This document shows positions 2,964-63,808 of a stretch of 64,000 bases of DNA, in pieces. The notes under the pieces were generated by a model, which had not been told where the DNA came from, did no database searches, and saw only the letters and a program-made list of their open reading frames with translations. How positions within the stretch are numbered: position 1 is the first letter of the stretch; each line of letters opens with the position of its first letter. The DNA comes from an uncultured Methylococcaceae bacterium (GTDB lineage Bacteria; Pseudomonadota; Gammaproteobacteria; Methylococcales; Methylomonadaceae): NCBI GenBank assembly GCA_903859415.1, contig CAIOMN010000236.1:1-64000 (forward strand). The letters are read 5' to 3'. The position numbers and the translations under genes were made by a program.

Positions 2964-3575
2964 TTAAGCCCAAAGCCAAGGAAAGTTTTGCTTGTGCTGA
3001 ACTTCGTAGGCAGAAATTTTATCCACGTGCTTAAGTGTTAAACCAATATCATCCAATCCACTTAACAAGTTGCCTTTACGGAAGGGGTCTATCTCAAACG
3101 TAAAACCATTACCCGCTGGCGTAATCACTTGTTGGTTTTCTAAATCAACGGTAAAACGCGCGCCTTCGTTAGCGTTAATTTCAGCCATTAATTGTTCTAA
3201 CTGCTCTTGAGAGACACGAATGGCTAAGATGCCATTTTTAAAGCAGTTGTTATAAAAAATATCTGCATAGCTGGTTGAGATAATGGTGTTAAAGCCATAA
3301 TCAGCAATCGCCCAAGGCGCGTGCTCACGTGAAGAACCACACCCAAAGTTATCACCAGCGACTAAAATTTTAGCGCCTTTAAAGGCTGGTTTATTGAGTT
3401 CAAACTCTGCGTTGTCACTGCCATCATCGTTATAGCGCCAGTCATGGAATAAGTGAATACCAAAACCACTACGCTCTACTTTCTTTAAAAACTGTTTAGG
3501 AATAATTTGATCGGTGTCGACATTGTTGCGATCCATTAACGCAGCAATGCTGTCATGTTTTAAATACGGTTCCAT
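2964..3575 (-). CDS. leuD: 3-isopropylmalate dehydratase, small subunit
   Basis: A 203-aa protein matching the full length of proteobacterial LeuD. It pairs with LeuC to isomerise 2- to 3-isopropylmalate in leucine biosynthesis. The aconitase swivel-domain signature is clear: the early DTDQIIPKQFLK segment at about residues 20-31, and GDNFGCGSSREHAPWA at about 73-88, which carries substrate-binding Ser/Arg residues. The start has AGGCAGAG upstream. It lies 21 bp downstream of leuC and the LeuA-family gene follows it, so the three are almost certainly one transcript. Confidence 0.97.
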   Translation of the reverse strand: MEPYLKHDSIAALMDRNNVDTDQIIPKQFLKKVERSGFGIHLFHDWRYNDDGSDNAEFELNKPAFKGAKILVAGDNFGCGSSREHAPWAIADYGFNTIISTSYADIFYNNCFKNGILAIRVSQEQLEQLMAEINANEGARFTVDLENQQVITPAGNGFTFEIDPFRKGNLLSGLDDIGLTLKHVDKISAYEVQHKQNFPWLWA

Positions 3576-47973: not shown

Positions 47974-50184
47974 TCAATATAAATCGACAGGATCAACATC
48001 TAACGACCAGCGTACTTTTTTAGCCTGTTTAAGCTTGGCAATTTCTGTTATTAATGCATCAAGCAAAACATGCAACTCCTTTCGCCTTACGTTTTGAAAC
48101 AACAATTGATATCGATAAAGACCGGCACGCCGGGCCATAGGAGCAAAGACAGGACCTAATACCTGAGTCTGTCCAGTGTTATGTTTTTCTATTAGCATAG
48201 TCAACGCCTTAAAGAAAAGCTGTGGCATCTTGATATCTACGGCTTGTACTCTTAATAAAGCCTGATAACTAAAAGGGGGTAAAGCGGCTGCTTTTCTCTC
48301 TTGTAAAGCAGATTTAGCAAAACTACGATAACCTTGTTGTATTAACGTCACCAACAGAGGATGATCAGGTTGTCGGGTTTGCATAATGACTTTTCCTGGC
48401 TTATCAGCTCTCCCCGCTCGACCAGACACCTGCACAATCATTTGGGCTAATTTTTCAGCCGCGTGAAAATCAATACTAAATAGGCCACTATCGACATCCA
48501 GAATAGCCACCAGGGTGACATTAGGAAAATGATGTCCTTTAGCCAACATTTGAGTGCCTAAAATAATATCAACATGTCCTGCATTAATTTGTTGCAAGTA
48601 ATTCTCTAACGCCCCCTTTCGTTGCGTAGAGTCACGATCTAAACGAACCGTGACTTTATCTTTAAAAATATCGGCAAGCGCTTGTTCAACACGCTCAGTC
48701 CCTAGTCCTAAGGGAATTAACTCTCCAACCTTACACGCTGGACATTGTTTAAGTAATGCTTGTTCTTGACCGCAATGATGGCATTTTAAATGTGCCGCAT
48801 CGAAATGGATCACCATATTGGCATCACAGCGCTGACAACGGGCTACCCAACCACAACCATGACAAATTAACGTGGGAGCAAATCCACGCCTATTTAAAAA
48901 CAGTAAGACCTGTTCATTTTTGGCGAGGGTTTTATGCATCTCCACTACCAACGCTTCAGACAAGCCTTCCTGTATTCTCTTATTACGAATATCCATTAAT
49001 TGTAAGACAGGTGCCAGTGCAGTACCTGCCCGCTCGGGTAAGTGTAATAATTGATAGCGTTGTTTATCGACGTTATACAAACTTTCCAGGGACGGTGTCG
49101 CCGAACCTAACAGAACAGGAATATGTAACTGTTTTCCCCTGACCACTGCAATATCCCGCGCCGAAAACCGAAAGCCCTCTTGCTGTTTAAAGGAGGCATC
49201 ATGTTCTTCATCAAGGATGATTAAACCGGGGTTCTTGAGTGGCGTAAATAAAGCCGAACGGGTACCTAACATAATTGAACAAGTGCCCTGTTTCAACTGC
49301 ACCCATGCTGCTTGTCGTTGCTTATCGGTCAGCTTGGAATGTGATAGGGCGATATCAACAGCAAAGCGTTGTTTAAAGCGATCTTCAAGTTGAGGGGTTA
49401 AGGTAATTTCTGGCACTAGAATTAATACTTGTTGCCCTCGCTCTAATACCGACTGGATAATCTGTAAATAAACCTCAGTCTTACCGCTGCCCGTTACACC
49501 TTCTAATAGAAATACCCCAAACTGCCCCAGCTTTTGACATACACTATCAATCGCCTGCTGTTGCTGAGGATTACAATTCAGTGGAGGATTACGAATAATT
49601 GCTTTAGACTCAGCAAACACCGAATCGGTCAGTTCCATACTTACTAACTCTTTACGGATTAACGCCGTCACAGCAGGACGCCAGTGATCATTCCACGCAG
49701 TTAACTCAGCCTCGGATAAATCATGCGTACTGGCCTGAAACTTATCCAGAACACTTTTTTGTTTAGGGCTGCGCTTTAAAGTATTGCTATCAGTCGTTCG
49801 CCCTAACTCAGTCAATGCAAAATGCTTTTCTGTCTTGATCGTCATCGCTTTGCCTTGACGAAGTGCATTGGGAATAGCTGTACTAATCACTTCACCTAAG
49901 GGATGATGATAATAATGGCTCGCCCAATGCAATAACTGTAAATCTTTGGCTGACAACAAGGGCTTATCATCTAACACACTTAGTACGTGTTTTAATTTAT
50001 CCGTGTCCAACTCACTGTGTTCAGTCACTTCAATCAGCACAGCTGTCTTGGTACCTTTTCCAAAAGGTACTTCTAAGCGCACCCCTGGTTTAATCAAAGC
50101 ACCATCAACGCCTTCAGGGGCAAGATAATCAAACAAACGGTAAAGAGGCACCGGAAGAGCAACTTTAAAAATCAGCGGTCTCAT
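47974..50184 (-). CDS. priA: Primosomal protein N' (replication-restart helicase)
   Basis: A 736-aa 3'-5' DNA helicase that restarts collapsed replication forks. A 3'-binding domain (about residues 1-105) is followed by the helicase core: Walker A LLEGVTGSGKTEVYLQ (about 225-240), DEEHD (about 325-329), GSATPS and the QMLAKGHHFPNVTLV motif. The zinc-binding cysteines are in CHGCGWVARCQRCD and CHHCGQEQALLKQCPAC (about 440-485). The start lies only 3 bp after the jetD stop, an unusual neighbour that could place priA under jet transcription. Confidence 0.97.
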   Translation of the reverse strand: MRPLIFKVALPVPLYRLFDYLAPEGVDGALIKPGVRLEVPFGKGTKTAVLIEVTEHSELDTDKLKHVLSVLDDKPLLSAKDLQLLHWASHYYHHPLGEVISTAIPNALRQGKAMTIKTEKHFALTELGRTTDSNTLKRSPKQKSVLDKFQASTHDLSEAELTAWNDHWRPAVTALIRKELVSMELTDSVFAESKAIIRNPPLNCNPQQQQAIDSVCQKLGQFGVFLLEGVTGSGKTEVYLQIIQSVLERGQQVLILVPEITLTPQLEDRFKQRFAVDIALSHSKLTDKQRQAAWVQLKQGTCSIMLGTRSALFTPLKNPGLIILDEEHDASFKQQEGFRFSARDIAVVRGKQLHIPVLLGSATPSLESLYNVDKQRYQLLHLPERAGTALAPVLQLMDIRNKRIQEGLSEALVVEMHKTLAKNEQVLLFLNRRGFAPTLICHGCGWVARCQRCDANMVIHFDAAHLKCHHCGQEQALLKQCPACKVGELIPLGLGTERVEQALADIFKDKVTVRLDRDSTQRKGALENYLQQINAGHVDIILGTQMLAKGHHFPNVTLVAILDVDSGLFSIDFHAAEKLAQMIVQVSGRAGRADKPGKVIMQTRQPDHPLLVTLIQQGYRSFAKSALQERKAAALPPFSYQALLRVQAVDIKMPQLFFKALTMLIEKHNTGQTQVLGPVFAPMARRAGLYRYQLLFQNVRRKELHVLLDALITEIAKLKQAKKVRWSLDVDPVDLY

Positions 50185-50187
50185 AGG

Positions 50188-51063
50188 TTATAACCAGATC
50201 GCTTCTTGTTCTAACACTTTACCGTAGCGTTGCGATAACTGGCCCAGCTTAATAAAGTCTTCTGTTAATAAGTCCAGCGTGCTGAGTTTTTGAAAGGCGT
50301 TTTCAAAGACTTGTCGAGTGTTTAACCACACCTCTGCATTACCGTAGCGGGGTAATTTATCTTCCCAATCCGATAGCCAATAAAACTGTAAAGTCGTCTC
50401 AGGAGGGAGTGCTTGTTTTAAGCGTACATAGTTACTTAAGCCCACGCCATCATAATCGGGAAATAAGATCACGGTATCAGCACGTTTGTAGCTTGAGAAC
50501 CAGTGTAATAATAATTCAGATAACTGTCCGCCATAGTAGACAAGGCAGCCTGTAAAATCGGCAGGCAACCAGTCACATTGATCAAACAAAGCCTGATTTT
50601 CGACTAATAGTATCGAACCAGTACACTGCCAAGTCGATTCAGCTTTAATTTGCAGACTGGCTACCCCAAAGCGTTCGGTTAAATCTGCGACCTTCAAGCT
50701 ATGGGTGTAATCTTGCCAAACGACCTTGGCATCCCAAGCTTTCATAAGCAGATAGTAACAAGCGTGTCGGGTCTTTCCGGTCTTACTGCTTCTATCCAAG
50801 CCTATATTACGACTGCGTTCTGGAATATCAGCCGGTAAGTCATTCACGTCTATCGGGTGCTGTTGTCGTAGATAGTTGAGTACACTTTGGCGATTAAGCA
50901 CTTTATAAACCGTACTTCTACCTTGTTTAACCAGTTCTAGTAACCGGGTATCCCGAGCAAACTGTTCTAAGGCTTGCCGTTGTTTCGATGTAAAAGCAGA
51001 CGCTGTTAAGGTCGGCTCATCCTCCTCTATCAGACGCCTTAAAGCTTCTGTAAGCATACTCAT
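50188..51063 (-). CDS. jetD: Wadjet/Mks TOPRIM nuclease subunit JetD (MksG)
   Basis: A 291-aa protein matching the JetD/MksG nuclease of plasmid-restricting condensins. The N-terminal 100 residues look like winged-helix arms. The TOPRIM domain has Glu155 in ILLVENQ and the Asp pair 203/205 in FPDYDGVG, the metal-binding residues needed to cut DNA. A helical tail ends LEQEAIWL. It is at the short end for JetD (many are near 380-400 aa), which fits the MksG type. The start overlaps jetC by 4 bp (ATGA). In characterised systems JetABC extrudes a DNA loop and JetD cuts small closed circles. Confidence 0.85.
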   Translation of the reverse strand: MSMLTEALRRLIEEDEPTLTASAFTSKQRQALEQFARDTRLLELVKQGRSTVYKVLNRQSVLNYLRQQHPIDVNDLPADIPERSRNIGLDRSSKTGKTRHACYYLLMKAWDAKVVWQDYTHSLKVADLTERFGVASLQIKAESTWQCTGSILLVENQALFDQCDWLPADFTGCLVYYGGQLSELLLHWFSSYKRADTVILFPDYDGVGLSNYVRLKQALPPETTLQFYWLSDWEDKLPRYGNAEVWLNTRQVFENAFQKLSTLDLLTEDFIKLGQLSQRYGKVLEQEAIWL

Positions 51064-53885
51064 GCAGGTTCATTGACCAGGTCATCAAACGCTTCATTAC
51101 TCAGGGGTTCTAAAATTTGCCAATTGATGCGGCTAATATAGTTCTTACCGTTTGTAGTGCCAATCGGCACACAATACCGTGCGGTGATTTGAGGCTCAGG
51201 GGAAGCGAAGATCAGCGTAAAACCAAATTCAGCGGCAATTTCTATTAAGTTGCGTTGATTACGTTGATCCAATGAGGCCGCTTCATCCAGATAACATGCG
51301 GTCTTAATGGCTTTACGAGGATCTTGCATTTGGTTCAACATCGCCAAGCCGGTAATCAGTTTAGCCATTAATACGGTTCCATTAGAGGCGGCACTGTCCA
51401 TATCTTCAAACTCTGCGGGGGCCTGATTTTCTTTAGCAATAATAAACACCAGTCTGAATAGATGCTCTACCCTTAGACCGCCTCGTGCTTCACCTTCTTT
51501 AATTAAAATATCTTTAGCGCGATTCAGCTCTTTATCATCCAGTACGGTGTTTTGATCAAATAAATCGAATGAATCTCCCGACTCAACTAATTCAGAGGTA
51601 GAGATTAAGATTTGTATGGCTTTAACCAGTGAGTCTTCCTCTCTGGGTTCTATTTTAAAGACCTTTAAATCAGATAACTGGCGTTTATTAATCTTATGAT
51701 TAAACTCGCGCATCCGACGTTTAAGGGTTTCCAGGCTGTCTCGTAAATCACGTAAAATTGCTGCGACTTGTACCACGGCAGAACGGGCTTTGCGTTCGAT
51801 GGCGGCTTGTTCTTTACTTAAATTAGCTGTGTAGGCAAATAAGGCTTCTAGCTCTTGTTCAATGGAGTCCTGGTTTTGAAACTTATTCACCCCGTCGATA
51901 TGTAAATCACTCAATTGACGATGCAAGGTATCATCTAAATCTCTAAGGCGGCGGCAATCTTTATTATAAATCTCGATATGATCCGCTAAGCTAGACATCA
52001 CCCACGTGGCGGTTTCCATGTAGGGTATAAACGGGAGTTGTTCCAGAAACGTAAACGGCGCTTGTTGATCCAGGCGTTGTTGCCGCGCTTGATGAATGCG
52101 TTGGTGCTGATTCAGTAACTCTTTTTGGGCGCCTTTACTGTGTTCTTGTTGCTGAGTGAGATTTTTCTTCTGATCTGAAAGCGTCGCTTCTTCGTGTGTT
52201 AATTCTGCAAGCTTTGCTGTGCAGTCTGTGAGTTGTTGCTGTCTGGCTGAAGCCGTTTCTTGTAAGGATAACCAGATTTGATAGTCTTTTATATCGGTAT
52301 CTAACCGATTTATTTGTTGTTCTAAGTGAGTTTGCTCGGCCTTTTGTTTCGCTAGGGTTTCAACCGTTTGCAGTAACTGTTGATACTCGGCTAATTGACG
52401 GACGATATCATCAAACTCTGTTTCCAGTTCTTGCGCGGTTTTAATTGTTAGATTGGGCTCTAAGGATGATAAATCTAACGATAAGCCCGGAAGTGTTAAT
52501 TGTTCTGCTGTTAAGTGTTTGTCTAGTAAGGCCGCAAAGGATTGAAAGGCGGCGCCGTCGGTTAATTGCGCAGTATTATCTGTTCCTACAGGCAAGCTTA
52601 AAACCGATTTAGCTAATAAACGGGTTAGCAGATCAAACTGATGAGTCGGTAATAAGCTTTGCAGTTGTAGATATAAATTATTATGCAGACTGGCTAATTG
52701 GCGTTTAAGAGCCTGTTGCTCTTGTTCCAGTTTCGTAATAGTCCGTTTAATCGCGTCAGTGGAGGTTTGTTGTTCGGCATTTTTAATCACTCTAACCAAC
52801 TCATCGCGTTGCTCTTGCAATAGTTCGCGTTGGGTTTGCAGTTGTTTTAAGTCACTGACAAACTCAAAACGAATACTGAGTTCTTGATGTTCCTGATCAA
52901 TTTTCTGTTGTACTTTTAAAGTGGCATCTACCCCGGCCTGTTCTTTGTAAATGGCTTTTTGTCGGCTTTCTAGGTTTTGAACCGTCAGTGTTAAAGCCTG
53001 TTGTTGCTGGGTAAACTGCTCATTCTCTTTATGGTAGTACGCTTCCCACTCATTAAGTCCGTGTTCTAAGGTGGGACGCCAAGCAATTAATTTGCCTCTT
53101 AAACTGCGTTGCTGTTGTTGACTGTCTTCCATACTGGCAATACGTGCTTGATTGCGAAACACCACGTCATACTGGGATTTATCATAATTAACATCAGCAA
53201 AGGATTTATCCCACTCGTTTTTAAAATCAACATTACGATCCTGTAAGTCGTTTTTAAAGATTTCTAGTAGATAGTTTTTAACTTCTCGACTGTCTAAACG
53301 ATCTAAGCGTAAAGTGCGCGTTAAGATACGTTGATACGTGGCAGCTTGCGAGGTGAACTCTAAAGGGAATATGGTTAAATCGGGTTCATCAGTGCGTTGT
53401 TTTTGTTTGTTGCCATAGAGTAAGGCACGCAATTCTGGTTGTGGATAAATCTTGGCGGGTTTTCCGCGTTCAAATAAGCGGGCCATTAATTTTGGTTGCG
53501 CGACTAGCTTGCCATCGTCTAAACGATAGTCGTCTAAGTCAAGGCTGCCTTGATAAGCAAAGTATTCATAGTCATGACTTAAGCCTTTACCCACACAACC
53601 AATCACTGCCATGCCTGATGGCAATAATATCTCTAATAAGATATAAGCGCTGTTATCCGGAAAATAAAAGCGCTTGGTGTTTTCAAAACTATGCGCCCCA
53701 AAGTCCATGTGCTGCTTGTTAAGGATTAACAGAAATTGTAAGGCATTAATCAAGCTGGTTTTGCCCGTATTATTGGGTGCAATAATAGACACCGAATCAT
53801 CCAGCGGTAATTCGGCACGACTATAACCCGCACTATTAAGTAAGACTAGCTTTTGAAAGCCATATTGAATAAGACTCACCGTCAT
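51060..53885 (-). CDS. jetC: Wadjet/Mks SMC-like ATPase JetC (MksB)
   Basis: A 941-aa MukB/MksB-like SMC protein, the loop-extruding motor of the complex. The N-terminal ATPase half has Walker A PNNTGKTSL (residues 37-45). Long Gln/Glu/Leu-rich coiled coils run about 255-450 and 490-720, flanking a short hinge-like segment near 450-490. The C-terminal half has Walker B CYLDEAASLD (866-873 for LDEAASLD) and IFASPEP. The length fits MksB better than the larger MukB. A low-quality AGGA directly abuts the ATG. Its usual upstream partners jetA and jetB are not adjacent but 8.1 kb away at 62010-63808. Confidence 0.9.
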   Translation of the reverse strand: MTVSLIQYGFQKLVLLNSAGYSRAELPLDDSVSIIAPNNTGKTSLINALQFLLILNKQHMDFGAHSFENTKRFYFPDNSAYILLEILLPSGMAVIGCVGKGLSHDYEYFAYQGSLDLDDYRLDDGKLVAQPKLMARLFERGKPAKIYPQPELRALLYGNKQKQRTDEPDLTIFPLEFTSQAATYQRILTRTLRLDRLDSREVKNYLLEIFKNDLQDRNVDFKNEWDKSFADVNYDKSQYDVVFRNQARIASMEDSQQQQRSLRGKLIAWRPTLEHGLNEWEAYYHKENEQFTQQQQALTLTVQNLESRQKAIYKEQAGVDATLKVQQKIDQEHQELSIRFEFVSDLKQLQTQRELLQEQRDELVRVIKNAEQQTSTDAIKRTITKLEQEQQALKRQLASLHNNLYLQLQSLLPTHQFDLLTRLLAKSVLSLPVGTDNTAQLTDGAAFQSFAALLDKHLTAEQLTLPGLSLDLSSLEPNLTIKTAQELETEFDDIVRQLAEYQQLLQTVETLAKQKAEQTHLEQQINRLDTDIKDYQIWLSLQETASARQQQLTDCTAKLAELTHEEATLSDQKKNLTQQQEHSKGAQKELLNQHQRIHQARQQRLDQQAPFTFLEQLPFIPYMETATWVMSSLADHIEIYNKDCRRLRDLDDTLHRQLSDLHIDGVNKFQNQDSIEQELEALFAYTANLSKEQAAIERKARSAVVQVAAILRDLRDSLETLKRRMREFNHKINKRQLSDLKVFKIEPREEDSLVKAIQILISTSELVESGDSFDLFDQNTVLDDKELNRAKDILIKEGEARGGLRVEHLFRLVFIIAKENQAPAEFEDMDSAASNGTVLMAKLITGLAMLNQMQDPRKAIKTACYLDEAASLDQRNQRNLIEIAAEFGFTLIFASPEPQITARYCVPIGTTNGKNYISRINWQILEPLSNEAFDDLVNEPA

Positions 53886-54014
53886 TCCTGCTTCAAGATT
53901 TATAAAGATATTGATTTGATAATTCGCGTTCTGTTGATAGATTAAACCAAGAATCTCGAAAACCTGAATTTCTTAAGATTCAACTTATGGTATTTGACAT
54001 CTAATATTCTCTTT

Positions 54015-54344
54015 TTAGAGTAACAGTGTAGCAATAGCTGACTTAGCATTACACTGTGCTATGGCTTCTTCTAACTGTACTTCATTCAGTTTATGTTTAA
54101 TAGCTTCAGCGCCATTGAAATCAAACGCCTGATAATCTTTTTTGGCAAAGGTAACGATTTGGCATTTCTTGAAGGGCATATTTTCAAACGGCATTGTTGC
54201 AGGGTTCTGGCTTATTGGTGCAGTCTCTTCCAAACTGGGCGCATAAATCAAAAACTCACCTTTCATAGCGAGTACAGCACGATATTGATTGGCAGTGGTC
54301 AAATATAAACTACCGACTTCAACCTCTTTTTCTTTTAATCTCAT
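54015..54344 (-). CDS. Hypothetical 109-aa protein upstream of jetC
   Basis: No family recognised. The N-terminal half is beta-rich (VEVGSLYLTT, RAVLAMKGEFLIYAP), followed by a loop rich in Pro/Met and a C-terminal helix (AEAIKHKLNEVQLEEAIAQ). It has no signal peptide or membrane segment. It ends 129 bp before jetC on the same strand and starts 110 bp after the end of a truncated vapC, so it could be either cargo of the insertion or a new first gene of the jetCD transcript. Confidence 0.55.
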   Translation of the reverse strand: MRLKEKEVEVGSLYLTTANQYRAVLAMKGEFLIYAPSLEETAPISQNPATMPFENMPFKKCQIVTFAKKDYQAFDFNGAEAIKHKLNEVQLEEAIAQCNAKSAIATLLL

Positions 54345-54453
54345 CTTGTTAAATACCTGGGTTTATTTTGATTCTACAAGTTTAATTAGCATTGATTTAA
54401 TTATCACATAAAAAAAAATAAGACATAAAATCGTATGTCAAAATGGCACACAT

Positions 54454-54678
54454 TCAACTACGCAAGGCTGGGATAATTTCAAATGCACCCGTAAAAAACG
54501 CCTTATCACACATCTTACCTATACGGTACTTGGTAGCAATTTCCCAAGCGGATGCACCGCTGACAAAAATTTGATGCTTTGGATTTTTAATAATTTCCCG
54601 ACTTTCAGAGCACAATTTAGGATCATCAAACACCCACCACAATAAAACATGGGTATCGAGCAGATAATTCATTCCCAT
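54454..54678 (-). pseudogene. C-terminally truncated VapC PIN toxin
   Basis: The frame encodes only 74 residues of a PIN-domain ribonuclease that is normally about 125-130 aa. The N-terminal catalytic Asp segment NYLLDTHVLLWW and the second motif SGASAWEIATKYRIGK are intact. The frame then ends at PALRS, and the C-terminal motif that completes the active site (typically HRDPFDR) is not found in any frame downstream. The true start is probably the second Met (54672), which overlaps the antitoxin stop as ATGA. Toxicity is not expected. Confidence 0.8.
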
Positions 54679-54875
54679 GCGTCTAACTCTATATCGGGCA
54701 AAGGCTCAAAAAATGCGTCACCTAATTGGCCTTTTAAAAGTCCAGGTTTACGCTCAACATTTGTTGATACCGGATCAAGTGTCATAAAAATAACTTCCGT
54801 ACGACGATGACGAAACTCAGGAGGAATCGGAATCACATCTTGTGGGTCTTCAATAATCTGGCGAATGGCAAGCAT
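54669..54875 (-). CDS. VapB-like antitoxin (DUF2281-type tail)
   Basis: A 68-aa antitoxin. The N-terminal part (DVIPIPPEFRHRRTEVIFM, about residues 13-31) is a swapped-hairpin-like DNA-binding strand pair. The tail KPGLLKGQLGDAFFEPLPDIELDAWE-like block (positions 43-68, key residues LKGQLG and PLPD) resembles the toxin-binding end of VapB partners of PIN toxins. Its cognate toxin is truncated, so it may persist as an orphan antitoxin or a cross-reacting anti-addiction factor. Confidence 0.7.
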   Translation of the reverse strand: MLAIRQIIEDPQDVIPIPPEFRHRRTEVIFMTLDPVSTNVERKPGLLKGQLGDAFFEPLPDIELDAWE

Positions 54876-54967
54876 GTTTTATACTCCTATTGTTTTATCA
54901 TTTCTGCAGTCAATTATTATGGTGACGGCTATAGTATTCATAGTGTTTCCGGCTCTTGAATAATAAC

Positions 54968-55078
54968 TTAAGAAAGTCTAACACAGTCATTCATGGCTAT
55001 TCCAAGGGCTGCGTTAAAATAGTATCCACGAAAATTACAGGCGGGTGTTATATCAACTTCTATCTCAAGTGCCTGCAT
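54968..55078 (-). pseudogene. Antitoxin 5' remnant
   Basis: A 36-codon frame beginning MQALEIEVDITP, which matches the opening of the other antitoxins nearby (MQAIELQATID and MQAYFETEVIL), with GAGGTAA eight bases upstream inside the end of the preceding PIN gene. After about 12 residues the similarity is lost. It is probably what is left of another vapB after a deletion. Confidence 0.4.
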
Positions 55079-55085
55079 GAACAAT

Positions 55086-55505
55086 TTACCTCGTCATAAC
55101 CTCCAAACTATCCATATCTAGAACTTTCAAGTTTTTCAGAAGCTTATCATTAACCAATTTAACCAACTGTTGATCATTGGTCCAAAATTGATCACATACG
55201 TCTAATGCGGCTGCGAGGTGCAAGGCATCGGGAGTTTTCAAGTTATGAATAACACGTAACTCTGTTGCTTGCTCAAAAACGCTTCTATTCAAATCAATCA
55301 AATGGCAGTCTTTAAAAAAATACTCATAGACGTTTAAAAATATTTTTTGATTCTCGCGTAACGCCTTTATTCTCGATTCAAGCCGGACTAACTCACTGCT
55401 AAAAACAATTTTACCTAGCAAAGCCCGTTTTAAAATTTGTTGCTGCTGCGAATTTCCTTCAATTAAATGAATAACCATACAGGCGTCTAAATAAACACGC
55501 TGCAT
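55086..55505 (-). CDS. PIN-domain toxin (VapC-like)
   Basis: A 139-aa PIN ribonuclease that appears complete. Acidic active-site positions are all present: Asp in YLDACMVIHLIEG (about residue 7), Glu in SSELVRLESR (about 38-44), Asp in KTPDALHLAAAL (about 94) and Asp in FWTNDQQLV (about 112). It overlaps its antitoxin by one base. This is the only full-length toxin among the modules in this stretch. Confidence 0.8.
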   Translation of the reverse strand: MQRVYLDACMVIHLIEGNSQQQQILKRALLGKIVFSSELVRLESRIKALRENQKIFLNVYEYFFKDCHLIDLNRSVFEQATELRVIHNLKTPDALHLAAALDVCDQFWTNDQQLVKLVNDKLLKNLKVLDMDSLEVMTR

Positions 55506-55750
55506 TAGATTTCACCCCAACTATCTCGCTCTTCTTTTATCTGTTTTATAATATCTTCATCAGAGCGTCCTTGTACATTCAGTGGCAACGTGGATAAAAA
55601 TTGACTAAGATTCCCTTTCTCAGTCATGTTTTCTTCTTTCTCATAAATCACTGCGATCCGAACTCTCCCTGCCGGAATTTCATCGGGTAACTGAAGATTT
55701 AAATGATGATTTACAGGTAAAATAACTTCTGTTTCAAAATAGGCTTGCAT
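55505..55750 (-). CDS. Antitoxin of the PIN toxin
   Basis: An 81-aa protein. The N-terminal domain (FETEVILPVNHHLNLQLPDEIPAGRVRIAVIYE, about residues 5-37, key LQLP and P-GRVRI) is AbrB/swapped-hairpin-like. The acidic C-terminal helix DEDIIKQIKEERDSWGE would wrap the PIN toxin. Start and stop join the toxin gene as TAATG. It is of a different type from the DUF2281-tailed antitoxins on both sides. Confidence 0.75.
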   Translation of the reverse strand: MQAYFETEVILPVNHHLNLQLPDEIPAGRVRIAVIYEKEENMTEKGNLSQFLSTLPLNVQGRSDEDIIKQIKEERDSWGEI

Positions 55751-55888
55751 AATCTTTTCCTTGGTAATTTTACTGATTTAATCAATCAACACGGTATCAT
55801 TTATTGGGTTTTTCTTGAGCGTGTGATAAATATTGGTTCTATAAGAATTTACAGCCGATGCCCTCGATTCCTCTGCGTTTCATCGAGG

Positions 55889-56008
55889 CTACTTGCTAAC
55901 AAACAACTCATTAGCTGGATCATTACAAACAAGATGCAATGCGGGTGATAGTTTTGCAGGCTCATCATTAAGCTATAAAAATATATGGGTATCCAACAGA
56001 AACCTCAT
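55889..56008 (-). pseudogene. VapC remnant with in-frame stop
   Basis: The frame starts MRFLLDTHIFL, an ideal PIN N-terminus, then has TAG where VapC proteins have Trp, and continues LNDEPAKLSP...CNDPANELFVSK before a second stop. Everything after about residue 40 is missing. The ATG overlaps the TGA of the frameshifted antitoxin upstream, so the operon layout survives although both genes are broken. Confidence 0.75.
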
Positions 56009-56233
56009 GTGGAACCACCCAGCCAGAAGTTGTCTGGCAATTCGTCATTAAAATTATCCTCACTATGGATCTTGCCTTTAAAGTTGGCCAAATTGACGCT
56101 TCTTAATGGGTGGTGCGGTAATCGTTTCAAGCAAAACAATCACTTTTGCTACCTGAGGTGGAAAATCCTCAGGCAATTGCAGATGTATCTGGTGATTTTC
56201 ATCTATTGTGGCTTGTAGTTCAATGGCTTGCAT
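56005..56233 (-). pseudogene. VapB antitoxin with a single-base frameshift
   Basis: From the ATG at 56233 (GAGG upstream) the frame reads MQAIELQATIDENHQIHLQLP and stops after 51 codons at RQFGQL. Removing one T from the CTTTAAA run (complement of 56080-56083) restores a frame that continues LKGKIHSEDNF...ELPDNFWLGGST to the TGA at 56005, which is the normal DUF2281-type antitoxin tail. The lesion is therefore a 1-bp insertion, and the full gene would encode about 76 residues. Confidence 0.8.
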
Positions 56234-56258
56234 AGTGACCTCTTGAGTAATTTACTTC

Positions 56259-58271
56259 TTAGAAAATTTGAATTTCATGACACGTATCAAACGCATCTTT
56301 AAAAATAGTCTCTTCATCAGTTGAAATAAGCCTTACACATCGAAGATTAAATTTAGCTCTTGAGCAAGCCACGTATATCAACTGCATATTCTTCTCCTTT
56401 TTTCTAAGGTCTTTTTCATCGGGATCAAATGCTGCACGAAAGTTGTATTCAGGCCAAAAATACTCATCAAGAACTACCAATACATTATTAATCCCTGTAC
56501 CCTTGGTCTTGTGCATCGTAATAAATGGCGTTTGATCGTCCTCATATTTGAAATAATTAAGCACTTCTGAAAATGTAACTTTATTTGAAAAAAGAGTGCT
56601 ATAAAACTGTTTCTGTTTTAAATTTTTCTCTTGTTCTTTGAATGTATCCTCATCCATTTCAGGCTGCTTTTTTTGCATTTTTACTAGCGTATTCCCATCA
56701 TTTTTATAGTTCTCTTCAAAGTTTATGAAACTGGCATCCTGATTTATGTCCGCCAAAAAGCTTTCAGCTCTATCCTTATATGCCGTGTATGATTCTGATT
56801 TTTTCAACAGGTTTAGTGTAAAAGCTTGTTCAACAGTTTCTACTGCACCTTTATCTGAATCAATGATGGCCTGGATATTAGTGCTGATGCTTACTTTATC
56901 TGCTACTGTCTTAATTGAAAGTCCAGACTTTTTTAACTTTGAGATAATAAAATTGTAGTTTTTATTTTTATAAGCATCGCATATTTCAAATAAGTCTAGC
57001 AGTTGCAGTCTTGTTAATATTTTTGCTAATTCTTCTTTAGGCTCAGGATACCTATCTGAAAAAACTTCATATAAATTAGGAAAATTTGCTTTTATGGAAA
57101 CGGCTTTGTTACTCAATAGTAATGTTTTGGAATCGTCAATATTAATAAAAGAGGCTTTCTCGATTAGGGTGTTGAGGGCATTTATATATGCTTCCTTTTC
57201 AGCATAATCACCCCAAACATTAGGTTTGTTTTTATAAAAAGAATAAAAAAATTCAACTGTTCCTTGTCGCTCTTCAATAGACTCTTCTTTTCCATCTTTT
57301 ATTTTTAGTGCTAGCTCCTGATTTAAGTTATCGTTTCGTAGCTTATTGATAAACTCAATCACTTGGGTCGAACATCTATAATTATCTTCCTTATCTATTC
57401 TCTTTAAATTGCCAGTAGTAACATACTCTTTAACATTACCTATACCATTACCATAGATTGATTGCATAGAATCGCCAAATAGTCCTATCACAGGTTTATT
57501 TTTCGGCGGTAATTTTGTTAAAAATAAATCTACTATTTTCTGATGTGTGTCTTGATACTCATCAATGAAAATATAGTCAAATTTATCGTTTAAAATCTTA
57601 CCTAGAAGCGGATATTTATCCATCAATAAAGCAGCAATATCTAATAAGCCATCGTGACCGTATGTAAGATTTTTTAGATCATTAAAACGTGTCTCATTGT
57701 ACTCAATCGACTTAAATCCTTTTTGTTGTATATCCTCTTGTATTTTATTATTTAGAGCTAGAATTTTATTATTTAGGATGATATTAAATTCCTCTGGTTT
57801 CGGGTCGTAAACTCTTTTACCCTCAACCTTATCTATACGGTCTCCAAAGACTAAAAAATATCGATCAGAATATTTTTCGTAAACCTTTTTATATTTTTCA
57901 TGTTCTTTGCTTTTCTGCTCTTTTTCATCGCTGTAATATGACAGTTCACATCTTTCAATAGAATCAACTTTAAATAACTCATAAATCACTTGATGAATAT
58001 TTTTCTTATAATCCTTGATTAGAGTGTTTAAAAAAGAGTGGATAGTGCTAACGATATGCTCACCATCAATCCTAGATTTTATCTCGTCTGCTGCTTTATT
58101 CGTATGAGTGATACAGGCGATTTTTTTGTCGGGATATACCGTCGAAATAAAATCAATTAATTGCTTCAACGTTTCAGTTTTGCCACAACCTGCCCCACCT
58201 TGAAGTACAAAGTCTTCATCTTTTAAAAGACAATCTTTAATTTTATCTAATGCGTTTATTTTACTAACCAT
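56259..58271 (-). CDS. gajB: Gabija-like UvrD/Rep helicase (GajB)
   Basis: A 670-aa superfamily 1A helicase. Motifs: Walker A GGAGCGKTETL (residues 25-35), Ia ITHTNKAADEI (about 54-64), II DEYQDT (237-242), III FGDSMQSIYG (265-274), IV NYRCS (about 297), V MHKTKGTGINNVLVV and VI YVACSRAKFNLR near the C-terminus. It overlaps the OLD nuclease gene by 16 bp. An OLD-family class 2 nuclease followed by a UvrD-like helicase is the Gabija arrangement. At 670 aa it is longer than the prototype GajB of Bacillus cereus (about 494 aa). Not a housekeeping UvrD or Rep, which have different lengths and contexts. Confidence 0.85.
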   Translation of the reverse strand: MVSKINALDKIKDCLLKDEDFVLQGGAGCGKTETLKQLIDFISTVYPDKKIACITHTNKAADEIKSRIDGEHIVSTIHSFLNTLIKDYKKNIHQVIYELFKVDSIERCELSYYSDEKEQKSKEHEKYKKVYEKYSDRYFLVFGDRIDKVEGKRVYDPKPEEFNIILNNKILALNNKIQEDIQQKGFKSIEYNETRFNDLKNLTYGHDGLLDIAALLMDKYPLLGKILNDKFDYIFIDEYQDTHQKIVDLFLTKLPPKNKPVIGLFGDSMQSIYGNGIGNVKEYVTTGNLKRIDKEDNYRCSTQVIEFINKLRNDNLNQELALKIKDGKEESIEERQGTVEFFYSFYKNKPNVWGDYAEKEAYINALNTLIEKASFINIDDSKTLLLSNKAVSIKANFPNLYEVFSDRYPEPKEELAKILTRLQLLDLFEICDAYKNKNYNFIISKLKKSGLSIKTVADKVSISTNIQAIIDSDKGAVETVEQAFTLNLLKKSESYTAYKDRAESFLADINQDASFINFEENYKNDGNTLVKMQKKQPEMDEDTFKEQEKNLKQKQFYSTLFSNKVTFSEVLNYFKYEDDQTPFITMHKTKGTGINNVLVVLDEYFWPEYNFRAAFDPDEKDLRKKEKNMQLIYVACSRAKFNLRCVRLISTDEETIFKDAFDTCHEIQIF

Positions 58272-60241
58272 GAAAGTGCCTCCCTAATATAGGCAGGCAT
58301 TTCCCAGTCTAATTCATCCTCAGTTAACGCTTTGTAGAGTAATGATGAGGCAAAAGCGGACTTGTTATCCAATATTTTATCCGTCAAATCGTAAGTATTC
58401 ATCGTATCATCATTGATATACTTTACATTTTTCAATCCATTAAAATCACTACCAACTAGGCTTTTTAATTTTTCCCTATTAACGTGCAAAAACGCATCTT
58501 CAAAACTCCTCGCATGATAGTCATTTTCCTCAAGTTGATAAGCTACTTTAACAATATCCCCTTCTTTAAATAAGTTATATTCCTTTAGTCGATTATACCA
58601 ATCTGCAAAATCTGGTTTATCAATATTAGGGGCCTTGTAGAAATGCTTTATGGTGTAGTTGCTTGTGTTGTCTGAGTCTTTTACACAACTTGCAGGATAT
58701 GAAGTTTTTGGCTCTCCATCTATAATCTTTATAGTTTTCTTGGTTGAATCAATATCAGTAATAATTAATGTTTTAATAGCTAGAAACTCAAGAAATGGTG
58801 CAAATACTTTGGCATTTGCACCGACTTCTAATATTGAAATGTGCTGTGATGCTAATGAAGTTATTTCGGCAGGTTTAAACTTTTCGTCGAATAGTTTTAT
58901 GAAGTATGGAAGTAAAATCTTTTCTGTTGTCCCTTCAATAAAAATTATTTTATCCGCAAAAAATAACTCAGAGGATTGGAGTGTTAAGTACTGTACTAAA
59001 AACTTAAAGTGATCCTGTTCATTTTCGTAAGCTACCTTTAATTCATCATAAAAGTTTTTGATTTCAATATTTACTTCATTTTTATCGCCATCAGTTTTCG
59101 ATAAATATCTGACATCTTTAAAATCACACTGTGAAACTATATGGGATGAATGCGTTGTAATTAAGGTTTGTAGATCTTTTGTTTCTTCAATTATTTTTTT
59201 TATTTGCTTTGCAAACACATACTGCATTTGAGGGTGAGTATGCGCTTCAGGCTCTTCAATAAATAAAAGATTAATAGGTTTCTTGTCTTTTGAAATGTAG
59301 TCTTTTTTAATCTCTATATCCAATAGCAAATAGAGAATATTCATGTAACCCAGACCATTAAGATGTTCAGGCAACACATGGTCATCGTCTCCATAAACAA
59401 CTTGGGAAGAATTTGAAATTAGTTCATTGGATTGAAGATTTGAAATGACTTTAAGATTCTTTAAGTTCAAAAAATCTTTAGCATTTTTTAAAAATCCATC
59501 AAATACAGTAGCATACTCGGTATCAAGATTCTGATCCATTTCAATCATCTTTTTATTGATGTCAGTGAAATCGCTATCGGATGACTTAAAATTATCGTTA
59601 TAGTATTTAGTCGTTAAAAAAGATAATGCTTGTTTATCTCTGGTGGATTCCTCTGAGCTAGACACATTACGTTTAGCGTGTATGATCTGCAAATTGATGA
59701 CTTCTTTGAGTGTAGCCAGATTCTTTTCTACTAAGTTGCTCCTGTCGTTCCAATCTAGGTCACTTTCATTCTGAAAAACAAAGAGTTTATTTTTTGAATA
59801 CTTACCGATGTTTTTTGAAATATATCTTGCTTTAGCTGTATCTGTATCTGATACCCCAGCGATACTTTTTAATAGCTTTGACTTATCAATCTGGCATTCA
59901 AAAAGAACATTCACGCTATTTATTGAGGGGTCTAAATCCAAAATAAATTCTGACAAATACTCCAAGTTGTCCTTGGCGTCATATTTAATTTCAACAACCA
60001 TTTGGATTGTTAAATCACTCTCTTGAGTAGAGTCTGAAAGTGCTAAGATTTTTTGACGTTGGCATAGCGGATAATCATCTAAATTAAATTTATTATCCTG
60101 AAAAAACTTTTGAAAAATAACTATCAACGAGGTTTTACCGCTATTATTTTTTCCAATTAGAAGAGATAATCCTTCTTTTACATCTAAGGTCGTATCTCGT
60201 AATAAGCGGAAGTTTTTTATTTGTATTTTGCTGATGCGCAT
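58256..60241 (-). CDS. gajA: Gabija-like OLD-family ATPase-nuclease (GajA)
   Basis: A 661-aa class 2 OLD protein. The ABC-type ATPase domain has Walker A GKNNSGKTSL (30-39), Walker B LLFIEEPEAHTHPQM (325-339) and the H-loop TTHSSH (363-368). The C-terminal TOPRIM domain has Glu436 in FIEGTTE, Asp496/Asp498 in ITDIDST and the late RSFEDAF motif (578-584), so the nuclease site looks intact. GajA senses depleted nucleotides and cuts phage DNA in characterised systems. Prototype GajA is about 578 aa. It lies 40 bp downstream of an hsdR stump and is coupled to the helicase gene. Confidence 0.87.
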   Translation of the reverse strand: MRISKIQIKNFRLLRDTTLDVKEGLSLLIGKNNSGKTSLIVIFQKFFQDNKFNLDDYPLCQRQKILALSDSTQESDLTIQMVVEIKYDAKDNLEYLSEFILDLDPSINSVNVLFECQIDKSKLLKSIAGVSDTDTAKARYISKNIGKYSKNKLFVFQNESDLDWNDRSNLVEKNLATLKEVINLQIIHAKRNVSSSEESTRDKQALSFLTTKYYNDNFKSSDSDFTDINKKMIEMDQNLDTEYATVFDGFLKNAKDFLNLKNLKVISNLQSNELISNSSQVVYGDDDHVLPEHLNGLGYMNILYLLLDIEIKKDYISKDKKPINLLFIEEPEAHTHPQMQYVFAKQIKKIIEETKDLQTLITTHSSHIVSQCDFKDVRYLSKTDGDKNEVNIEIKNFYDELKVAYENEQDHFKFLVQYLTLQSSELFFADKIIFIEGTTEKILLPYFIKLFDEKFKPAEITSLASQHISILEVGANAKVFAPFLEFLAIKTLIITDIDSTKKTIKIIDGEPKTSYPASCVKDSDNTSNYTIKHFYKAPNIDKPDFADWYNRLKEYNLFKEGDIVKVAYQLEENDYHARSFEDAFLHVNREKLKSLVGSDFNGLKNVKYINDDTMNTYDLTDKILDNKSAFASSLLYKALTEDELDWEMPAYIREALSWLVK

Positions 60242-60280
60242 TTACGATCCTTATGATTTTAGTTTTTTAACGTGCTACAT

Positions 60281-60622
60281 TTAGCAAATAGCCTCGTTTA
60301 AGTAAAGTAGAATCGATGAATTATTTTCAATCCAAGCATTGAGGTAAAGCACTTCTGCATAAAGTTTAACCGTCAGAAAATTATAAAAGCCTTCGCCTAA
60401 GTCTTCATTTTCTAAAACCAGCGATACATTTTCAAAAGTTCTATTAATGGCACTGGCATCGCTATCGGGATTTATTTTTAAAAGACTGGCTGAAAATATA
60501 TCAGTAAAGATATTAGTGCTCTCGTCTCGCGGTGTTTGATTTAACGATAGATAAGAATAGCCTAAACGACATAAATGCAATATCGCCGGAATCTTGACTC
60601 GGGTATTTTCGTTAAAGCTCAT
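60281..60622 (-). pseudogene. hsdR: N-terminal stump of type I restriction subunit HsdR
   Basis: The frame from the ATG at 60622 (AGGATC upstream) begins MSFNENTRVKIPAILHLCRLGY and continues ...STNIFTDIFSASLLKINPD...SLVLENEDLGEGFYNFLT, which is the classical HsdR opening. Similarity ends there, at about residue 84, and unrelated codons run to a stop. HsdR is about 1000 aa, so more than 90% is missing; hsdM and hsdS are also absent. The restriction gene was probably cut off when the adjacent Gabija genes were acquired or by a later deletion. Confidence 0.75.
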
Positions 60623-61091
60623 GCTGATCCTATTTAAAGTGGCTACCGCGAATTGCTGGCAAACTATAATGAAGGCATCATAGCAAATAACGCCCCTACT
60701 CACTATGATTCAAAAAAAACCCCTAAAGTGATCGATGAAACCCATTCATGGACTCACTTAATTTTCATCCTCAAAAATAAATAGTTCCGTTACATATCAA
60801 CCACTCAGCACCATTTTCTCGTATCATCCTGAAAATAAAACATTTTTTAACTATCCCTTATCCAAAATAGGGCCTATAGTCTCGGTGTCAGTTATATTTT
60901 TCCGGGTAATAGCACTATTTGCACCTGTTTTAGTTGTTGATATAACGGTGATGCAACTGACTTTAGGATCTTGAACCTGATTGTTAGGGGTATTTTTAGG
61001 GGTGGTGGTTGAATAAACCACTAAACTTGCTCTACTCAAGCAGTTCGATGCTTGTCACAGGAGTATTATTAGCACCATTAGGGGGCATATC
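60623..61091. other. Gene-poor spacer between the hsdR stump and the duplicated gene
   Basis: No gene is convincing in this stretch. A 62-codon minus frame at 61039-60851 starts with TTG, lacks a ribosome-binding site and resembles nothing recognised. A T-rich segment and short repeats of AGGGGTA/GGGGTGG at about 60985-61005 are the only local structure seen. Either hsdR regulatory DNA or junction sequence may be here. Confidence 0.4.
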
Positions 61092-61697
61092 AGCTACCCG
61101 ACACGTTTCAAAGAGGTGTTAGCCTTCTCTCCCCAGGTATTATAGACGGCTTCAAAGCAGCAAGGATGGCTCAGGATTAGTTTTTATAAGTGCGCGTAAG
61201 GTCTGGAGTTCTCTCTACAGACATTGAGAATGCCAGCTATTTTGTTTTCTTAACAATGGATTGAATTATTATGTCTAATCAAGGCTATTTCCCAACGAAT
61301 GAAGCCGAACGCTCAGTTTGGCTTGCGCATTTTCGTACCAAGCTTCCGGTTCATTGCGTGGAGCTTGGCTTTTCCCTCGATGATATTAACAGTACCCTGG
61401 CGGATATTGATTTTTATATCTGGCTGGTACAGAGTTGGAACCCCGCCGTTCAAAAAAATGCGGTAGAAGCTTCGGCTTTTAAAGCGCTAATCGGCACTGG
61501 CTCAGGTAGTGAGCTGGTTGCATTACCTGTCCATGTAGTATTTGATCCAGAGCCTTTGCCAGTGTTACCCGGTGTTTTGACGCGCTTATTTAATCTGATC
61601 CAACGCATTAAAATGGCCGCGACTTATAACCTGGTGGTGGGTAAAGATTTAGGTATTATAGGTACTCAAAGCACGGCTGACTCTGATGTGCCTGATT
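61092..61697 (+). repeat. Right copy of the 606-bp dispersed direct repeat
   Basis: Gapless match to 1-606, covering the 179-bp leader and 142 codons of the 231-aa gene. This copy is the intact one. The leader contains conserved blocks shared by both copies (for example AGGTGTTAGCC, TTAGTTTTTATAAG and GTAAGGTCTGG) that may be promoter or mRNA leader elements. Confidence 0.9.
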
Positions 61698-61966
61698 TTA
61701 CCGTGACAACAGAACGTGGACCCACCATTGAGCGAGTCAAACTAAACTTTACCAAATACAATCATGGTGGAGTGGTAGTCGAGAGTCGCCGTAATGGCGG
61801 TCCGTGGGAGGTTTTGGGTATTGCAGTAACGAAACCCTGGTATGATGAACGCGCTTTGCTGGTTGATACCGCGCCTGAAATACGTGAGTATCGGTTAAGA
61901 TGGTGGGATAAAGGTGATGCCAATGGTGAATATACAGCGGTACAAAAAGTCACTGTTGCGCCTTAA
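61271..61966 (+). CDS. Conserved hypothetical protein of a multicopy family
   Basis: A 231-aa protein of unknown function without signal peptide or membrane helix. Residues 1-130 are mostly helical (for example AERSVWLAHFRTKLPVH and LTRLFNLIQRIKMAATYN). Residues 140-231 look like a beta sandwich of fibronectin-III type, with VKLNFTKYNHGGVVVESRR, PWEVLGIAV and EYRLRWWDKGDANGEYTAVQ. A decayed copy lies at 180-608. It is transcribed opposite to every other gene in the split jet locus and ends 43 bp from the convergent jetB stop. Similar proteins seem to occur in several copies in methanotroph genomes, but that is from memory. Confidence 0.65.
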   Translation: MSNQGYFPTNEAERSVWLAHFRTKLPVHCVELGFSLDDINSTLADIDFYIWLVQSWNPAVQKNAVEASAFKALIGTGSGSELVALPVHVVFDPEPLPVLPGVLTRLFNLIQRIKMAATYNLVVGKDLGIIGTQSTADSDVPDFTVTTERGPTIERVKLNFTKYNHGGVVVESRRNGGPWEVLGIAVTKPWYDERALLVDTAPEIREYRLRWWDKGDANGEYTAVQKVTVAP

Positions 61967-62009
61967 TTTAAGCACCAGACACAGACAGCTAATGGTATTG
62001 TTTTAAATC

Positions 62010-62567
62010 TTATATCACCAAGTCGGACGGCTGAGTTAAGTCGGCCCGTTCGGCTTGAGCGAGTTCTTCAAATAAATCCAAATATCGATGCACTGCCGGT
62101 AACAGCCAATACACGCCGTCAGTACAGACCAGAAAACCAATACGCGCGGCGCTATCCAATATTTCTTTTAGCGATTGCTGATGATGGATTTCTTCTGCTT
62201 CCAGGATAACCTGATAATGCAGCATGAGTTTTTCTAGCAAGGTGTCATTCAACGGCCACTGCTGAAACTTGAATAAATGCAAGCCTTGATCAGCTTGGTA
62301 TTCAAACAATAACATCAGCACTAACGCCAGGCGACGGGTGAGTTTTCCGGTATACGAACTGGCTTGATCAGTCTTAAAATAAGCAAAGCCGCGACCGTCC
62401 ACCACCAGGCTAAAGCCTAAACTGGCAAATAATGTTTGGTAAGAATCTTGATGCGTTTCAAGCTCTACCCAGAGCTCTGTTTCTTGTAGACGATTTAAAT
62501 GCGCACCCGAACTCAATAGTTTAAAGAGCGGTTGTAATTGCTTGAGGTGTGATAAGTCAATAATCAT
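62010..62567 (-). CDS. jetB: Wadjet/Mks MukE-like subunit JetB (MksE)
   Basis: A 185-aa MukE/MksE-like winged-helix (KITE) protein that bridges kleisin and SMC in the condensin complex. It has two winged-helix-like blocks (about residues 15-60 and 75-160) with the LTRRLALVLMLLFEYQADQG helix characteristic of this family. It overlaps jetA by 4 bp (ATGA), which marks it as a coupled pair. In intact loci jetC follows directly, often also by overlap; here the jetC start is 8.1 kb away. Confidence 0.8.
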   Translation of the reverse strand: MIIDLSHLKQLQPLFKLLSSGAHLNRLQETELWVELETHQDSYQTLFASLGFSLVVDGRGFAYFKTDQASSYTGKLTRRLALVLMLLFEYQADQGLHLFKFQQWPLNDTLLEKLMLHYQVILEAEEIHHQQSLKEILDSAARIGFLVCTDGVYWLLPAVHRYLDLFEELAQAERADLTQPSDLVI

Positions 62568-63808
62568 AAGGTGTTGAGCGTATGGCTGTGTAATGAAATA
62601 GCCACCCGTTTAAGTTCAATACGGGTTTGGTTTGCCTGAGGAATGGCGGTGATATCCGGTAATCGGATTAAGGCATGGTACTGCCGTAATAAAGTAATAT
62701 CCTGGTAAGTGCCATAATGATTCACCAACCAGGCCATTAAATCAGCAACTGGTAAGCTTTGATACAAGTGCTGACGAATGGCTTCTTCATCTATACGTTC
62801 TAACTGAATTTGAGCTTCTTCTATATTCAGCTCAGGAAATTCAACTGCTTTGGGCTGATAGTTTCGGACTTGCTCCATCAGAGTTAATAATTCAGGGCCG
62901 ATGGCAATAGACGTGGCGCGTTCCTTACGCCACAGCGGCAAACTGTTTTGAGGAAACGTTCGGCTTAAGCCTTTTTTACGCACCTCACCCAGCAATTGGC
63001 CAATCGCAGAACTAAGCTGGTTGTGTCGGCGTACTTCTTCCCGCAGTGGCATTAAGGTGTTGGTACATTTCTTTAAGGCCGTTAATCCGGTTTGACGTAA
63101 TATCTTAACGCGCAAGCCTATTTGGCGTAATAACCGCTGATGGCTGTATAAACCGCCTTGTATAGCCAGTTGGGTGCCAAGCGTTTCAAAGACCCGCTCT
63201 GCTTCTTCTAATAACGGATAAAAACTGCCGCCTGCTCCAGTATCCATGAGTTCGGTCATGGGTAAGACATAGCGGTCATAGGCCTCTAATACTTCGGCAT
63301 AGCGCCTCGCTAAAGGCATGCGTTCATCCGCACTTTTAGCCCGTTCAGCGATATCCTGAATCGCGTGGGTGTCTTGCTCCAGTTGTTGCAGGATTTGTCT
63401 CAGTTGATTATCAATCCGCACCGCGCCTCTTTGTAAGGCCGCCATATCATGAGCTTGCAGGGCTTGATGTAATTGCTCCAGTCCGGCTTTGATATCAATA
63501 ATCCGGGCTTTTAAAATATCCGATAAGCCCAGTTCATGCTCATGCAGTAAGCTACCTACAAATTGTCGAATCGATTCGTTCAGTTGCAAGGTGTTGCTCT
63601 GCGACATTTCGATCAATAACTCGGTATTAACCAACTGTTGCAGACGCTCAAGGTGCTGTTCAGTGGATTCGTTTAAATAGGTTTTACCTAAGAGAATCAG
63701 GACATCACTGCGCTCATAGGTAATTTGATCACGTCCTAATAACACTAAACGTTCAATAACGTCCCACTGTTTATCCAGTGCCCGAACCAGACTGCGAGGA
63801 TTAATCAT
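62564..63808 (-). CDS. jetA: Wadjet/Mks kleisin subunit JetA (MksF)
   Basis: A 414-aa MukF/MksF-like kleisin. An N-terminal winged-helix domain (about residues 1-110, with the QWDVIERLVLLGRDQITYERSD opening) is followed by a long helical middle region (about 110-290) rich in Gln, Leu and Arg, and a C-terminal winged helix (about 340-400) that would bind the SMC head. It is the first gene of the jet operon. A DnaA-box-like palindrome lies 31-52 bp upstream of its start. Confidence 0.8.
   Translation of the reverse strand: MINPRSLVRALDKQWDVIERLVLLGRDQITYERSDVLILLGKTYLNESTEQHLERLQQLVNTELLIEMSQSNTLQLNESIRQFVGSLLHEHELGLSDILKARIIDIKAGLEQLHQALQAHDMAALQRGAVRIDNQLRQILQQLEQDTHAIQDIAERAKSADERMPLARRYAEVLEAYDRYVLPMTELMDTGAGGSFYPLLEEAERVFETLGTQLAIQGGLYSHQRLLRQIGLRVKILRQTGLTALKKCTNTLMPLREEVRRHNQLSSAIGQLLGEVRKKGLSRTFPQNSLPLWRKERATSIAIGPELLTLMEQVRNYQPKAVEFPELNIEEAQIQLERIDEEAIRQHLYQSLPVADLMAWLVNHYGTYQDITLLRQYHALIRLPDITAIPQANQTRIELKRVAISLHSHTLNTL

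Follow-up and report, generated by a model that had tools for sequence, protein, structure and literature searches.

An Mks-type SMC–nuclease operon, split and occupied by changing cargo, with both halves retained, in an uncultured Methylococcaceae bacterium

How do the genes of one putative SMC–nuclease complex come to lie more than 8 kb apart, with unrelated defence genes between them? Co-expression and co-inheritance are usually taken to be what keeps the genes of a multi-subunit complex in one operon. The locus considered here lies in a window of 64,000 nucleotides on contig C236 of a draft genome (G000; 3.72 Mb in 280 contigs) of an uncultured Methylococcaceae bacterium, and the nearest named matches of this window were uncultured Methylococcaceae MAGs and one Methylobacter isolate. 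On the minus strand a kleisin gene is followed by mksE, a gap of 8,124 bp, an SMC gene, a Toprim-type gene, priA and argS. The upstream pair consists of an intact mksF/jetA-like kleisin gene (62564–63808, minus strand, 414 aa; NCBIfam NF040857, 8e-45) and an mksE/jetB-like KITE gene (62010–62567, minus strand, 185 aa; Pfam MksE, PF21980, 2.2e-30). The downstream pair is formed by an intact mksB/jetC-like SMC ATPase gene, here called smc (51060–53885, minus strand, 941 aa; NCBIfam NF040859, 4.8e-115), and an intact mksG/jetD-like gene for a putative Toprim protein of 291 aa (50188–51063, minus strand; DUF7281, 1.7e-5, and predicted fold). The conserved downstream flank is priA (47974–50184, minus strand), which is syntenic with argS in the contiguous genomes G011 and G014 and in the split genomes G018 and G019. 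The Walker A (APNNTGKTS) and Walker B (ACYLDEA) motifs of the SMC protein are invariant across 11 orthologues. The initial annotation had described two gene pairs, each with a 4-bp overlap, on one strand, in canonical order and separated by this gap, and the ORF coordinates agree with all of these points; the smc start, which it had placed at 53885, is probably the GTG at 53879 instead, since this GTG has AGGA 7 bp upstream and G018 reads ATA at the position of the aligned ATG. The NCBIfam model names are reversed relative to the literature, with the kleisin model NF040857 called 'MksB' and the SMC model NF040859 called 'MksF'; in literature naming MksB is the JetC homologue (PMC10123090).

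The system had been labelled Wadjet, and this label needs a qualifier. The MukF-like kleisin, the MksE KITE and the SMC ATPase were all matched by NCBIfam or Pfam models for MksBEFG subunits, and strongly so (1e-30 to 1e-115); the matches to the NCBIfam Mks models nevertheless fall below the equivalog cut-offs, which indicates a diverged branch. The typed PADLOC Jet models, on the other hand, matched only at about 1e-5 or worse (JetC1, 9e-6; JetB1, 2e-5), the JetA and JetD models did not match any protein of the locus, and the fourth subunit differs from that of type I, which is a DUF3322/DUF2220 protein. The match of the fourth protein here to DUF7281 reached 24.9 bits, under the Pfam cut-off of 27. 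In the predicted model of this MksG-like protein (pLDDT 75), a winged helix at the N-terminus is accompanied by a Toprim part; the best structural neighbour of the latter was topoisomerase VI-A (Z 8.2), with Pseudomonas aeruginosa JetD (7til) lower (Z 7.0; 105 residues aligned, 19% of them identical), both Z scores being near background. The acidic residues expected of a Toprim domain, E155, D203 and D205, are invariant in 13 sequences. A Toprim/JetD-like identity of the fourth subunit is thus consistent with the predicted fold, which falls short of proof. When profiles of the SMC, kleisin and MksG proteins were searched against the sequences of solved structures, no match was credible.

As judged from its genes, the complex is of Mks type, with a putative DUF7281 Toprim protein as its fourth subunit and weak similarity to typed Wadjet. 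It shares with MksBEFG of Corynebacterium glutamicum and Pseudomonas a kleisin, MksE, an SMC ATPase and a putative Toprim subunit in the order F-E-B-G, but differs from it in the break between E and B, in having a short DUF7281 protein in place of a DUF3322/DUF2220 one, and in an SMC protein whose sequence matches no solved structure. With Wadjet types I–III (JetABCD) it has in common the functional layout and, in the predicted model, a JetD-like Toprim fold, yet the level of the PADLOC matches means that no type is assignable. Anti-plasmid activity is documented for type I Wadjet/MksBEFG (reviewed in PMC10586767; PMC10123090), and MksBEF of P. aeruginosa has a role in chromosome organisation (PMC7485682). 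By analogy, plasmid restriction may be the task of the complex described here.

We then asked how common such a gap is among 301 genomes of the order, taking as distance that from the mksE HMM match to the smc HMM match. The two genes lay no more than 236 bp apart in 26 of the 29 informative genomes, in line with the earlier statement that known jet/mks loci are compact; three further genomes were uninformative because the genes were at contig ends. Only the genome studied here and its close relatives G018 and G019 were split (3/29), a distribution that makes the split more than a matter of chance. G014 and the closed genome G011 have a gapless dsbB-mksF-mksE-smc-mksG-priA-argS order. The empty mksE–smc junction whose existence in relatives had been proposed as a check was found in 10 genomes: in 10/10 contiguous junctions examined, one of them in a closed genome, mksE ends in a TGA that is shared with the start of smc in a 4-bp overlap (NTGA). 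With identical flanks and overlapping junctions in the contiguous relatives, it is the gap that is derived.

It could be argued that the two pairs belong to different systems. The mksFE tree and the smc tree, however, both place this genome, G018 and G019 in one clade at 100%, so that an origin of the two halves in different clades is ruled out and the four genes make up one system, as the initial annotation had supposed. A second complete operon, which would have made one of the halves an unrelated fragment, was likewise sought: no other mks/Jet operon was found in this genome, nor any DUF3375 match, and there was a single SMC-type match.

A leader directly upstream of smc (53886–53945, minus strand, by alignment and blastn), about 60–80 bp long, is common to the three split genomes and absent from the contiguous ones. 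The split therefore predates the divergence of the three and represents one event; on this comparison of sequences its origin is single. G018 and G019 are draft MAGs with the two mks halves on different contigs, where gap size and cargo are seen in part. The mksE–231-aa junction of the window (the 231-aa gene is described below) is also present in G019, with 97.7% identity, and is followed there by a pentapeptide-repeat gene. The smc side of G019 joins a relocated region with genes for a 515-aa kinase-like protein and a DHH protein; in closed G011, 2.5 Mb separate this region from mks, and in the present genome it is on a different contig from mks, so that the halves in G019 may be far apart. 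In G018 a fragment of an insertion-sequence transposase stands behind mksE, and hsdM and a HigA-like antitoxin gene stand before smc. The idea that this hsdM is the methylase of the mks-less genome G017 was rejected, as tblastn gave no match. The cargo consequently differs in all three split genomes, which bears out the suggestion that the junction had become a landing site.

Could the gap be spurious, produced when a MAG was assembled or binned? Each of the split genomes is a draft in hundreds of contigs, but the smc leader and the mksE–231-aa junction recur in independent assemblies, and the contig of the window runs on at either side into neighbourhoods of conserved synteny, which makes an artefact extremely improbable.

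The cargo in the window begins directly behind mksE with a gene for a 231-aa protein (61271–61966, plus strand), antisense to mks and lying between mksE and an hsdR stump. It belongs to a genus-wide multicopy family that matches 15 loci of this genome and 19 of G019 and may be a marker or a driver of rearrangements. No Pfam, PADLOC, PHROG or NCBIfam model matched the protein; its predicted structure (pLDDT 73) has a helical N-terminal half and an Fn3-like beta C-terminal half, and structure searches returned weak Fn3-like matches only. A decayed copy of the family was also seen at 180–608 of the window (plus strand), and copies sit both at the mks break and beside a rearranged leu block. The cargo list given earlier lacked this gene, whereas the other elements that it named, a GajAB pair, an hsdR stump and toxin–antitoxin pairs, are all there. 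The truncated hsdR gene (60281–60703, minus strand, 140 aa) encodes the N-terminus of a type I restriction protein, with a Pfam HSDR_N match (3.5e-5) slightly under the cut-off; a full-length homologue of 1054 aa is found in G017, and the homology breaks at 60372.

Next on the minus strand come two intact Gabija genes, gajA for a protein of 661 aa with an OLD-type ATPase and a TOPRIM part (58256–60241; PADLOC GajA 1.5e-195; OLD-like_TOPRIM 7.9e-15; AAA_15 1e-54) and, overlapping it by 16 bp, gajB for a UvrD-like helicase of 670 aa (56259–58271; PADLOC GajB 6.8e-271; UvrD-helicase 2.6e-22). With both components adjacent and strong model matches, the pair resembles known Gabija in everything but its location inside a split mks operon. 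Its GC content of 31.8%, against 45.4% for mksFE, fits a foreign origin; a search for a donor among the 301 genomes of the order gave as the closest GajA a protein of about 35% identity in distant genomes. Between gajB and smc, still on the minus strand, lie a VapBC-like pair (55086–55750), with a PIN toxin of 139 aa (Pfam PIN 2.5e-10) and an upstream partner of 81 aa in an ORF at 55505–55750 that has no Pfam match; a truncated PIN toxin of 74 aa with a 68-aa partner (54454–54875; Pfam PIN 3e-6, model positions 1–47 of 120); and orf109 (54015–54344, 109 aa), the last gene before smc, with no assigned function. The tail of orf109 is homologous to the G019 sequence upstream of smc, and a full-length copy with 91.5% identity stands directly before priA in the mks-less genome G021 (L116 10571–10900).

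What occupied the break earlier is suggested by G017, in which a block of 1.7 kb with 93% identity to the window (the 231-aa gene, orf62 and the start of hsdR) stands beside trxA, at a locus that has a complete hsdR as well as methylase and specificity genes. The edge of this block retains a 12-mer of the mksE tail, CAAGCCGAACGG. In the window, the final 12 or so mksE codons are within DNA homologous to the G017 block: homology to other mksE genes stops near 62045 and homology to the block extends to 62057. In both G017 and G007 a 29-aa relic of mksG stands against priA. Taken together, the block and the mksE-tail and mksG relics indicate that the earlier cargo in this lineage was probably a type I restriction block, of which the hsdR stump in the window would be the remnant, and that G017 and G007 probably lost mks after this stage. 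The G017 relics are at two loci, the mksE tail at L089 (about 3523–3551) and the mksG C-terminus at L112 (about 3309–3395). A simple deletion model for G017 was rejected, as the orientation of trxA requires an inversion too. Since G017 and G007 are without the system, mks is dispensable in part of the clade.

The dS values between this genome and G018 (loci L041 and L046) were 0.48–0.94 for the mks genes, as against about 2 for the flanking priA and argS, which suggests that already split mks genes were exchanged between lineages. The stretch between dsbB and priA also varies on its own account: in G002 (L114 3669–10039) it holds a different Wadjet-like operon, with a DUF3584 SMC, an MksE-like protein, a 409-aa protein and a DUF7281 protein. 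The dsbB–priA interval may be a recurrent site for SMC–nuclease systems.

Such losses raise the question of whether the Mks system is decaying here as well, the split being a step toward loss and the intact frames reflecting recency. G017 and G007, which belong to the same priA clade, keep beside priA only the mksG relic, and an smc match is absent in 22 of the 35 genus members. The split genomes are, however, separated by dS values of 0.2–0.9, and no stop or frameshift was found in the 12 gene copies of the three. The kleisin has 93–99% amino acid identity to its counterparts in the two split relatives. Pairwise dN/dS since the split was 0.03–0.065 for mksF, 0.013–0.061 for mksE, 0.048–0.063 for smc and 0.084–0.121 for mksG, compared with 0.045–0.069 for the flanking priA and argS and 0.074–0.165 for the contiguous pair G014–G011; dN/dS is an average over time, in which a very recent loss of function would stay hidden. 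Values of 0.01–0.12 since the split mean that both halves are still under selection, and we regard decay as unlikely. The intact appearance of the Jet proteins reported at first holds up in this comparison. It is clear from these ratios, as far as gene sequences can tell, that continued selection acts on both halves, a signal that is the same for condensation and for plasmid cleavage.

If both halves are maintained, the nested arrangement might itself be selected, either because promoters of the defence or toxin–antitoxin cargo drive smc-mksG conditionally or because GajAB cooperates with Mks. Each of the split genomes has a small same-strand gene ahead of smc (orf109 in the window, a relative of orf109 in G019, and the HigA-like antitoxin gene in G018), and no terminator-like site was found on the smc strand between orf109 and smc. 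A scan for promoters near smc turned up 25 sites, where shuffled sequences led one to expect 31, and hence no promoter above chance. There are also precedents in which an embedded system complements its host system, namely TgvAB within the type I restriction–modification operon of Vibrio cholerae (PMC11411939) and nuclease modules within BREX loci (PMC12839542). Against a selected nest, GajAB was not seen at the break on the draft contigs of G018 or G019, so that the proposed selection for a Jet–Gabija nest is not supported; even between the nearest relatives the cargo is not conserved, both hsdR and one of the PIN genes have decayed, and contiguous operons are the rule across the order. The odds are therefore poor for this reading. 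About equally doubtful is an adaptive split, in which the kleisin/KITE assembly half and the SMC/MksG motor–nuclease half would be separate transcription units and smc-mksG would capture the promoters of whatever toxin–antitoxin or defence cargo is resident; plasmid cleavage would then be armed conditionally.

The best explanation, to which we give a probability of about 0.78, is fission of an ancestral operon at an insertion-prone site, followed by cargo turnover, with both halves retained as one MksBEFG complex. The ancestral state would be a compact mksF-mksE-mksB-mksG operon between dsbB and priA. This operon would have opened once at the mksE/smc junction, in the lineage of methane-oxidising Methylobacter that includes this genome, G018 and G019, with destruction of the translational overlap, and from then on DNA would have been inserted, deleted and rearranged at the break time and again. 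In the lineage that this genome shares with G017, the first arrivals appear to have been a type I restriction block and the multicopy 231-aa gene, and low-GC GajAB and the PIN toxin–antitoxin genes would later have replaced most of hsdR here. The single origin of the split, the turnover of the cargo and the intact halves under purifying selection are directly visible in the genomes compared. We infer further that both halves are still expressed and form one complex, an SMC–kleisin–KITE loop extruder with a Toprim nuclease, that its activity is probably anti-plasmid, and that Gabija is a passenger and not a functional partner. From what is known of the families, the kleisin and MksE would bridge two SMC dimers, the SMC motor would extrude DNA and the Toprim subunit would cut DNA of the wrong topology or size. 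The kleisin–MksE pair would keep the old promoter upstream of mksF, and smc-mksG would have to rely for its transcription on its own leader or on read-through out of the small same-strand cargo genes.

That one defence system can be embedded in another is already known; what is new is an operon fission after which both halves were conserved. Like TgvAB, the BREX modules and the defence genes embedded in other defence operons described by Payne et al. 2024, as that work is cited in PMC11411939, the present locus has one defence system between the genes of another, but its inserted content is not conserved and hence does not demonstrate a stable embedded module. A split mksB gene has been mentioned for P. 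putida (PMC10123090), which is a different event from an operon break between E and B. A literature search, which left out preprints and many journals, found no report of an Mks/Wadjet operon that is interrupted between E and B and yet retains both parts.

The locus is a natural fission of an SMC–nuclease operon, with four genes under purifying selection and a break reused by unrelated defence genes. The different cargo that close relatives carry at this break is a warning that defence genes embedded in an operon can be passengers. The split also makes testable whether it matters that MksE and SMC are translationally coupled through a 4-bp overlap, and how far a nuclease-bearing condensin tolerates a motor–nuclease half that is expressed separately.
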